Notes under the pieces: generated by a model
What the model was told of the DNA's origin: nothing
Databases searched by the model: none
The model's input: the letters and a program-made list of their open reading frames with translations, nothing else
Assembly (NCBI GenBank): GCA_003044455.1
Contig: POWY01000013.1
Location: 1 to 42,652 of the forward strand
DNA length: 42,652 nucleotides
Reading direction: 5' to 3'
Source of the DNA: Neisseria bergeri
GTDB lineage: Bacteria; Pseudomonadota; Gammaproteobacteria; Burkholderiales; Neisseriaceae
In this document: positions 39,932-42,196 of the stretch, in pieces
Position numbering within the stretch: position 1 is the stretch's first letter
How the letters are laid out: every line of letters starts with the position of its first letter
Program-made: the position numbers and the translations under genes

Positions 39932-40051
39932 GATTATTTTCCTTTTAAAGTAAAGGGACAGGCTACGATTGGCCTGTCTTTCAGACAAAGTTAAACTTGG
40001 CACAAATGTACCAAGCTCGGCATTATATCCGACAAGTCAAAGAAATATCAA
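39932..40051 (-). promoter_or_regulatory. Predicted rplC promoter and hairpin leader
   Basis: On the minus strand TTGATA (40046-40051) and TATAAT (40022-40027) are 18 bp apart. The leader of about 80 nt includes an AGACAGGCC / GGCCTGTC-like stem (GACAGGC at 39957-39963 against GCCTGTC at 39974-39980 on the plus strand, loop TACGATTG region). This would give rplC and the following genes their own start and a structured leader, a possible L4 autoregulation target. Confidence 0.5.
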
Positions 40052-40076: not shown

Positions 40077-40112
40077 ATGCCGCCTGAAACGTTTTGAATC
40101 TTCAGACGGCAT
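40077..40112 (-). terminator. Imperfect inverted DUS hairpin after the GTPase pair
   Basis: ATGCCGCCTGAA (40077-40088, one mismatch) faces TTCAGACGGCAT (40101-40112). It lies between the end of the second GTPase gene and the rplC promoter, and a small GGTCGG/CCGACC stem (40134-40148) sits next to the stop codon. Confidence 0.6.
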
Positions 40113-40149: not shown

Positions 40150-40833
40150 TCACGGCGTATGCATCTTTCTCCGACAAACCGGGATATGGTTGATGACTGC
40201 ATCCATTATTTCTTTGAGATGGTAGTTTTCGTATGCCGAATAGTAAACGGGTTTGGAAATCTGCAAACCTGTCGCTTCCAGAATCCTTTTTTGCACCGAT
40301 TCGGCCTTCTCGTCTAGAAACTGTTGCAAAGCCGGCTGCGGCTGATGCAGCACCTTATCCCAATAACGTCCTTTCATCGCCATATCCGCCTGATTAATCG
40401 CAACAATAACCCTATCCGGATCAATCATTTTAAGGATAACGTCCCTCAATAAATCATAAGCCGTACCCAAATCGCGGGAGCTGCCGTCAAGGATAACGAA
40501 CACCAAATCTATCCAGCCCCACTGCCCATCCGAATGAGTATAGGTTTTAGACAGGACATCAATCAGTTTTTGCCGATGGGTGCGGTCAGCTTCTTTCCCA
40601 TCGCCTAAACCTGCGCTGTCCCAAAATCGCAACACATCGTTCAGCATATAGCTTTCGACCAATTGCGTTTCAGGATCCACGCCTGTACCTACCTTGGCTT
40701 TTTGTTCGCCAAACAAGGCATTTAAGGTTGAGGACTTGCCGACACCTGTCGCACCGACAAGCAAGACATCCAGAGGACGGAAACCGGCTGCTGTGACTTT
40801 TTGCCCGATTTCAGAAATACGGTAACGATGCAT
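40150..40833 (-). CDS. HSR1-like GTPase, second gene of the tandem pair (short form)
   Basis: The 227-residue soluble protein has the G1 motif GATGVGKSS at about residues 26-34, the shared VGTGVDPETQLVESY switch region, the G3 motif DSAGLGDG, and G4-like INQADMAMKGRYWD. It begins MHRYRISEIGQKVTAAGFRP and has no C-terminal membrane tail. The ATG at 40833 is chosen since TAGGGG lies 5 bp upstream. The frame reaches a TTG at 40857 overlapping the first gene. It starts 8 bp after the end of the long GTPase gene and is clearly in the same operon. Relatives are YeeP/YfjP-type GTPases of prophage and island regions. The function is unknown. Confidence 0.8.
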   Translation of the reverse strand: MHRYRISEIGQKVTAAGFRPLDVLLVGATGVGKSSTLNALFGEQKAKVGTGVDPETQLVESYMLNDVLRFWDSAGLGDGKEADRTHRQKLIDVLSKTYTHSDGQWGWIDLVFVILDGSSRDLGTAYDLLRDVILKMIDPDRVIVAINQADMAMKGRYWDKVLHQPQPALQQFLDEKAESVQKRILEATGLQISKPVYYSAYENYHLKEIMDAVINHIPVCRRKMHTP

Positions 40834-40841
40834 ATATGCCC

Positions 40842-41861
40842 CTACCAGCCAAACCAAGAGGCAACCGTGCTAATCCCCCTTCCAATCGCTTTTGCAGCGC
40901 CGCCGATCAGCGTCCCGACACTGCTCGCTATCGTTGAAACAACATCTTTAACCACGCCTCCCGCAGCCCCCAATATTTTCTCCAGCGCACTGCCGATACT
41001 GCTGTCGATTTCTTGCCGCTCCTCCTGTTTGCGGCGGCTGGTATCTCGTTCGATTTCTTCCACATTGATCTTCTCTGCCACAATCACCCGTTTTTCAGAC
41101 GGCATAGCAGTAATGATATAACGCAACAGGCGGGTTATGTTATAGGGACGCTGCTCCTCATCCTCACTCTTAAAGCCTGCTGAAAAATAAATCGGATTGA
41201 CCGTAACTCCGGTAGCTTCCTGAATGCGCTTGCGCGTCGAACACACTTTCTCCTCCAAAAAGTTTTCCAAGGCGGCGTTCGGACGGCCGGCTTCTGCATC
41301 CCAATTCCGCCCCTTCATCGCCATATCACACTGATTAATCGCAACCAGCAACCGGTCTGTACGGCCTTCCCCGCTCTTCTTCAATGTATTGATGATGACA
41401 TTGTTAATCAGTTCGTATGATGTCCCCAAGTCTCTGGAACCGCCGTCAAGCAGCACCAAAACCAAGTCGATGACGGCATTGCCGTTACTGTCTTTCTCCA
41501 ACAGCTTATTGATGATATTTCGCCGGTGCCGTTGGTCTGCCTTCTCTCCGTCGCCCAAACCCGGACTATCCCAAATCGTCATATTCTCCAATTCATATTT
41601 GGCAATATCCATAGTTTCAGGATCTACACCCACGCCTACTTTTGCGACCTCCTTTACCGGACCGTCGCTCTTTCCCGTTGCCTGATCTATGCTGAACAAG
41701 GCATTGATGGTGGATGATTTTCCGCAACCGGTGACTCCGGTAATCAAAATATTGACGTGCGTATCCTGCAAGATCTTAACCGCCCGCTCCAAATCATGCC
41801 GTTCTTCCGAATTCAATTCTTTGTTGTTTAAAATATCTTTAAAGACATTAAGTAGGCTCAT
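40842..41861 (-). CDS. HSR1-like GTPase, first gene of the tandem pair (with hydrophobic C-terminus)
   Basis: This is a 339-residue GTPase. G1 is GVTGCGKSSTINALF near residue 40, the shared switch VGVGVDPETMDIAKYEL follows, G3 is DSPGLGDGEKADQRHRR, and G4-like is INQCDMAMKGRNWD. A linker at about 255-285 is rich in E, R and Q (EIERDTSRRKQEERQEI). The last 45 residues are glycine-rich and hydrophobic (ILGAAGGVVKDVVSTIASSV, then GTLIGGAAKAIGRGI), which suggests a membrane-associating tail. Two adjacent ATGs exist; 41861 has AAGGA 6 bp upstream. A DUS copy inside the gene encodes MPSEK. It is paralogous to the short GTPase downstream. Its location between rpsJ and rplC splits the S10 operon. Confidence 0.8.
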   Translation of the reverse strand: MSLLNVFKDILNNKELNSEERHDLERAVKILQDTHVNILITGVTGCGKSSTINALFSIDQATGKSDGPVKEVAKVGVGVDPETMDIAKYELENMTIWDSPGLGDGEKADQRHRRNIINKLLEKDSNGNAVIDLVLVLLDGGSRDLGTSYELINNVIINTLKKSGEGRTDRLLVAINQCDMAMKGRNWDAEAGRPNAALENFLEEKVCSTRKRIQEATGVTVNPIYFSAGFKSEDEEQRPYNITRLLRYIITAMPSEKRVIVAEKINVEEIERDTSRRKQEERQEIDSSIGSALEKILGAAGGVVKDVVSTIASSVGTLIGGAAKAIGRGISTVASWFGW

Positions 41862-41941
41862 CATCTTTCCTTTATTTACTTGAGAATAAAACATCATCCA
41901 TCCTTGGAATCAGATGGATGATTCTGCCCAAACCAAGCCCG

Positions 41942-41968
41942 ATTCTACCTTTCTTCGGGGGGGGGCAA
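41942..41968 (-). promoter_or_regulatory. Candidate phase-variable promoter (C9 tract between -35 and -10)
   Basis: Read on the minus strand, TTGCCC (41963-41968) is followed by more C residues and GAAGAAAGG, then TAGAAT (41942-41947). The complete run is nine C residues (nine G at 41957-41965 on the plus strand). With nine C the spacer is 15 bp, and two more C residues would give the optimal 17. In Neisseria the porA and opc promoters are switched in this way by slippage. The start of the GTPase gene lies 80 bp downstream, after a 9-bp-stem leader hairpin. Confidence 0.6.
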
Positions 41969-42055
41969 GCCTTAGGAAGGCTATGAATGAAACATATCTT
42001 GTTTTATTCACTAAAAAATATCGGGTAATGCCGTATGAAAATTTTTGAAGCACAA

Positions 42056-42132: not shown

Positions 42133-42144
42133 TTCAGACGGCAT
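42133..42144 (-). repeat. DNA uptake sequence (AT-DUS), single
   Basis: TTCAGACGGCAT lies just past the rpsJ terminator. Confidence 0.9.
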
Positions 42145-42151
42145 AACATAA

Positions 42152-42184
42152 AAAATCCCCAAGCATTGATTGCTTGGGGATTTT
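42152..42184 (-). terminator. Rho-independent terminator directly after rpsJ
   Basis: AAAATCCCCAAGCA (42152-42165) pairs perfectly with TGCTTGGGGATTTT (42171-42184). On the minus strand a T-run follows. It stands 12 bp after the rpsJ stop, exactly where the S10 operon would normally continue into rplC, so tuf-rpsJ transcripts should end here. Confidence 0.9.
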
Positions 42185-42196
42185 CAATAGTCCGAA

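Follow-up and report, generated by a model that had tools for sequence, protein, structure and literature searches.

Between rpsJ and rplC in the genome of Neisseria bergeri lies a pair of genes encoding GTPases, preceded by a run of nine cytosines. The question raised by this locus is whether the run belongs to a promoter that is switched by slippage and, if so, what is being switched. The window, meaning the whole stretch of 42,652 nucleotides that was analyzed, is contig 13 of a 40-contig, 2.26-Mb Neisseria genome. Slipping promoter tracts in Neisseria serve mainly surface proteins. An earlier note on this DNA had proposed a phase-variable promoter for the two GTPases. Our best reading, which we consider probable, is likewise that a slippage-tuned promoter drives the pair. 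The type of switch is already known; what sets it apart is the cargo, a module of two GTPases that in some other genomes lies beside defence genes. If the reading is correct, an internal and possibly anti-phage function would join the stochastic switches of Neisseria.

The poly-C site and its setting

rpsJ and its terminator come first, followed by the probable promoter, GTPase A and GTPase B, and then by the rplC promoter and rplC itself. The features, in the direction of transcription, are as follows.

42151 to 42185, minus strand: rpsJ terminator (15-pair stem and T tail), upstream of the GTPase unit
41968 to 41982, minus strand: inverted repeat AGCCTT-CCT-AAGGCT, whose last base is the first T of TTG; a possible operator
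41966 to 41968, minus strand: TTG, the start of a putative weak -35 box TTGCCC that has its three Cs in common with the tract
41957 to 41965, minus strand: C9 tract (C7 in genome G019, C15/C16 in N. viridiae, C6 in genome G014 and two gonococcal records)
41948 to 41956, minus strand: constant stretch GAAGAAAGG from the tract to the -10-like box, the same in the three intact copies and one base different in gonococcal-type copies
41942 to 41947, minus strand: -10-like box TAGAAT, the same in G019, N. viridiae and gonococcal-type copies
41893 to 41922, minus strand: leader hairpin of 11 pairs with a T-containing tail; a possible attenuator or operator
40842 to 41864, minus strand: GTPase A, 339 amino acids from 41861, with a glycine-rich hydrophobic C-terminal tail; Pfam MMR_HSR1 and IIGP above cut-off
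40150 to 40833, minus strand: GTPase B, 227 amino acids, 8 bp after A and tail-less; Pfam MMR_HSR1 above cut-off
40022 to 40051, minus strand: rplC promoter TTGATA-18-TATAAT, near consensus, downstream of the GTPase unit

Read on the minus strand from 41968 to 41942, the site consists of TTG, C9, GAAGAAAGG and TAGAAT in that order, and the anatomy, coordinates and counts first reported for it proved exact on re-reading. With the inverted repeat included, the minus strand from 41982 to 41942 is AGCCTTCCTAAGGCTTG-C9-GAAGAAAGG-TAGAAT, followed by a 77-nt leader that holds the hairpin, the Shine-Dalgarno-like AAAGGAAAG and then the start of GTPase A (ATG at 41864, or 41861, 77 nt past TAGAAT). The site had also been placed after a terminator and about 80 bp before a GTPase gene, which agrees with the rpsJ terminator at 42185 to 42151 and the measured 77 nt. 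The homopolymer thus sits where a slippage-spaced promoter would have it, between a -35-like and a -10-like box (TTGCCC-15-TAGAAT). TAGAAT matches TATAAT at five of six positions; the -35 box is weak, with four of six matches between TTGCCC and TTGACA, and nine Cs give a spacer of 15 bp. A scan for consensus promoters with 16–18-bp spacers does not list the poly-C site, and on the minus strand from the rpsJ terminator to GTPase A it gives no other sigma-70-like site.

With a terminator belonging to rpsJ on one side and a near-consensus promoter for rplC on the other, the GTPase pair is a separate unit. The earlier description of the pair as inside the ribosomal supercluster is right by position, but the junction is a loose one. 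We located rpsJ in 44 of 46 Neisseria genomes, five with the pair or its remnants and 39 without. In 18 of these 39, rplC follows 138–352 bp after rpsJ and the interval contains no C or G run of six or more, whereas in the other 21 rplC was not found in the approximately 2 kb retrieved downstream of rpsJ. For 10 of the 21 the end of rpsJ could be placed, and there the ORFs that follow are, by eye, non-ribosomal. It seems that the ribosomal cluster of Neisseria has repeatedly been broken, or has taken up insertions, at this junction.

Tract length among Neisseria genomes

Two further Neisseria genomes, G019 and N. viridiae, have this gene pair behind the same promoter. The intact pair occurs in these and the window's genome only (3/46), and fragments of it are present in two others, G014 and G008; a weak match (residues 15–102, E 4e-4) was seen in G013. 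The remaining 40 genomes gave no match at E 1e-3. A DNA search with the promoter region returned long matches in the same five carriers only, and matches of 24–61 bases elsewhere. In G008 the promoter has been lost, together with part of B and most of A. The copy in G014 is gonococcal-type, with 785 bp identical to gonococcal record NZ_CP119142, and the copy in NZ_CP119140 differs from these two only near the rplC end. Gonococcal-type copies are disrupted by a deletion and an inserted element, which we take to be Correia-type. Both records are complete gonococcal chromosomes that are classed as plasmids in PLSDB. G019 contains a capsule-export domain and lacks a lacZ-type domain (the window's genome has neither), and on this domain content it may be N. 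meningitidis.

Among the intact copies, the window has C9, G019 has C7 and N. viridiae has C15/C16, and C6 precedes the broken pair in all three gonococcal-type copies (G014 and both gonococcal records). The comparison is between species, with one genome per species. The earlier note had named a tract of fixed length as the outcome that would count against a switch, and between species that is not what is seen. The N. viridiae assembly is broken within the tract, one contig ending in C16 and the other beginning with C15 (contigs labelled C28 and C9). A long or mixed tract would produce such breaks, and so can sequencing error at long homopolymers.

The flanks are more constant than the tract. 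The 41 bases flanking it, a region picked after the fact, are identical in the three intact copies; had they evolved as fast as the synonymous sites of gene A (tree length 0.167), about 6.8 changes would be expected. Between the window's genome and G019 there are 2 differences in the 103 positions from tract to start codon compared with 19/213 in the upstream spacer (p 0.027). With N. viridiae the contrast (2/92 and 14/214, p 0.16) points in the same direction and is not significant. The outermost pairs of the leader hairpin (41922 to 41893) are not the same in other species.

The C9 tract is the longest homopolymer in the window and the sole C or G run there of at least eight. In first-order Markov simulations of 335 bp (50,000 per composition), a C9 or G9 run appeared in 59 with the window's composition and in 322 with intergenic composition. 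The fuller pattern, TTG followed by at least nine Cs, 5–13 bases and TANAAT, was chosen after the site had been seen and appeared in none of the 50,000 under either composition. Across the 2.26-Mb genome, tracts of at least nine give 61 matches that merge to 23, and a rough zero-order expectation is about 18, so that runs of nine are near their chance number genome-wide. The looser pattern C6-N6-14-TANAAT is not enriched in the window's genome: it occurs once, at the poly-C site, and the identical pattern in backward reading, taken as a control, also occurs once.

Slippage and its alternatives

In the proposed mechanism, the site would serve a two-gene unit, GTPase A and then B, with the poly-C occupying most of the distance from TTGCCC (-35) to TAGAAT (-10). 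Slipped-strand mispairing would alter the number of Cs, thereby changing the distance between the two boxes and their phase, and transcription of both GTPases would change in turn. The promoters of porA, opc and fetA are alike in having a homopolymer between -35-like and -10-like boxes, in its differences of length between genomes and in a similar distance before the gene. They differ in cargo, which is outer-membrane protein there and a cytosolic-type GTPase pair here, as well as in the weak -35 and putative tract effect of the present site. Tracts between -10 and -35 have been described for porA, fetA and opc (PMC2791445), and for opc a change from C11 to C12 increases expression (PMC3447861).

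Two anatomical parallels were also seen. In the window's genome a TonB-receptor gene is preceded by a C10 tract that can be read as TTGCAA-17-TAATAT, and N. viridiae has TTG-C9-GCAAAACA-TAAAAT (locus L106, approximately 1495–1525) roughly 40 bp upstream of a small gene whose product starts like a signal peptide.

The proposal of a phase-variable promoter is upheld in part: the anatomy stands, tract length varies from one genome to the next (C9, C7 and C15/C16, with C6 in broken copies) and the flanks are constant in the intact copies. We infer the rest, namely that TAGAAT is a real -10 box, that the tract slips within a strain, that transcription tracks its length, and which lengths are ON. 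The ON length of 11 Cs in the earlier note is arithmetic from a 17-bp spacer, and C11 was seen in no genome.

Published surveys speak for slippage: deep sequencing of meningococci found homopolymers of at least eight to be mostly variable (PMC5084427), and a genus survey used a threshold of at least nine Cs (PMC5953494). Taking 8–9 or more as the hypermutable range, the window (9) and N. viridiae (15/16) are inside it. Several observations weigh against a slippage promoter. The C7 of G019 is below that range. The site is unlisted by the consensus scan. If TTGCCC is the -35, the observed tracts yield spacers of 13, 15 and about 21 bp, and of 12 bp in the broken copies, none of them within 16–18 bp. 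Either every sampled genome is in a weak state or the optimum lies elsewhere.

The main rival, which we judge unlikely, is that the tract sets the distance from the -10 box to an upstream regulator site, the inverted repeat at 41982 to 41968, instead of the -35/-10 spacing. The repeat abuts the tract; its arms are preserved in the three intact copies and changed in the broken gonococcal-type ones. There is precedent in nadA, where operator spacing set by a repeat can be what varies (PMC2791445). However, the regulator is hypothetical, the repeat is short and the broken copies are essentially one lineage.

An explanation that we find similarly improbable is that the promoter is real and its tract drifts neutrally, with no meaningful effect on expression. 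C-tract lengths wander, and the A-runs of the spacer nearby differ by 1–2 bases between species, so some change of length is expected without selection. That all spacers seen are off the optimum, and that C6-N6-14-TANAAT is no commoner than its backward control, would also suit drift. The range from 7 to at least 15 Cs beside 41 constant flanking bases argues the other way, as does the fact that known tracts of this kind are functional.

It is very improbable that there is no promoter here and that a chance C9 precedes GTPases whose transcripts read through from rpsJ or begin elsewhere: the site falls under the consensus scan and runs of nine occur at about chance frequency in the genome, but the position of the tract and flanks that stay constant while it differs lead us to set chance aside, the strong terminator after rpsJ does the same for read-through, and the scan offers no other sigma-70-like site on the minus strand from that terminator to GTPase A. 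The slippage-tuned promoter thus remains the preferred reading for this small and conserved site.

We did not find the locus in the main texts that were searched. The main text of the genus phasome survey (PMC5953494) makes no mention of GTP, rpsJ or rplC, and that of the meningococcal survey (PMC5084427) none of GTP, rplC or ribosomal protein. GTP and rpsJ are absent from the main text of PMC5320596 and GTP from that of PMC6232127. Among the literature titles searched, none concerned this locus or the GTPase module.

The GTPase pair and its relatives

Purifying selection acts on both GTPases, with dN/dS values of 0.099, 0.146 and 0.118 for A and 0.077, 0.114 and 0.092 for B. In the alignment of A, GxTGxGKSS and DxPGLGD are invariant and NQxD stands at the usual place of NKxD; we take these to be the G-domain motifs (P-loop GxxxxGKS, DxxG and NKxD). 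A glycine-rich hydrophobic tail ends most A rows and is possibly membrane-seeking. All NCBIfam matches fell below cut-off.

GTPase A resembles IRG/dynamin-type GTPases. Its sequence match to IRG proteins (p47; Irga6, Irgb10) covers residues 24–105 or so, and structural matches have 16–19% identity; unlike the IRG proteins, the pair is bacterial and forms a two-gene unit. The G domain also matches the PADLOC models for the dynamins LeoBC (7.6e-10) and LeoA (3.1e-9) and for mad8 (3.6e-5). All three profiles match only partially; GTPase A has 339 amino acids against 559–601 positions in the Leo models, and membership in LeoA/LeoBC was rejected because the matches are limited to positions 65–141 of 601 and 21–123 of 559. 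PHROG 16468, a phage/prophage family of unassigned function, matches residues 14–336 of the 339 of A at 4.6e-50 and B at 6.9e-34. It also matches all 83 Neisseriaceae genomes and all 14 controls, and was thus excluded from counting. Despite this match, a phage origin was rejected: no relative was found among 50,697 phage records and none was confirmed in viral contigs, where the promoter core was likewise absent (0 occurrences).

An even draw of 369 genomes across the class gave two with relatives at E 1e-60, the window's own among them. Outside Neisseria we counted 16 loci: nine from genome contigs, five plasmid records, G059 and G138, with three Proteus records counted as one and G046 as the same locus as L005. 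Two or more such GTPases are in tandem at 13 of the 16, the single ones being at L005, L152 and L159. Of the 12 B rows in a 27-row tree, 11 group in a single clade (support 100/100); the remaining one, from a Vibrio plasmid, sits on a long branch outside that clade. This single clade indicates that the A/B split probably predates the spread of the module between phyla. Such an early split suggests that A and B work together.

Restriction-modification, methylase or CRISPR-signalling genes neighbor the module at 4 of the 16 loci, a count made without a matched background, and at none in Neisseria; we regard these defence neighbors as a lead only. On a Vibrio alginolyticus plasmid (L151, 3959–5433) the order is hsdM-hsdS-A-B-PD(D/E)XK-hsdR, and the nuclease matches PADLOC PDC-S26. 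This type I restriction-modification operon enclosing the pair is a candidate composite defence operon. The pair is near csm6, cas1, cas2 and an MkoC-matching protein on a Photobacterium plasmid, and near a Csx1/Cas_NE0113 protein in a Succinivibrionaceae genome. G138 has two C5 cytosine methylases, at distances of about 1.5 and 3.7 kb from the pair. A WYL regulator before a Psychrobacter pair was left out of the count. Among selected neighbors scanned with profiles, the other loci showed no recognisable defence gene. Mobile-element genes were present at some of these other loci: a serine recombinase (L003), IS5, MobA and a toxin-antitoxin pair (L150), and radC with AlpA (L152).

From these neighbors one might suppose that a mobile defence module of two GTPases with an IRG-like fold sits between rpsJ and rplC in a few Neisseria species, slippage-switched so that only part of each population would pay for and gain protection. 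Such a phase-varied prokaryotic counterpart of IRG proteins is a tentative suggestion that we regard as doubtful.

The sequence GCCGTCTGAA, presumably a DNA uptake sequence, occurs on either side of the GTPase unit (42133 to 42142 and 40101 to 40110) and within gene A (41094 to 41103). This placement would fit spread by transformation.
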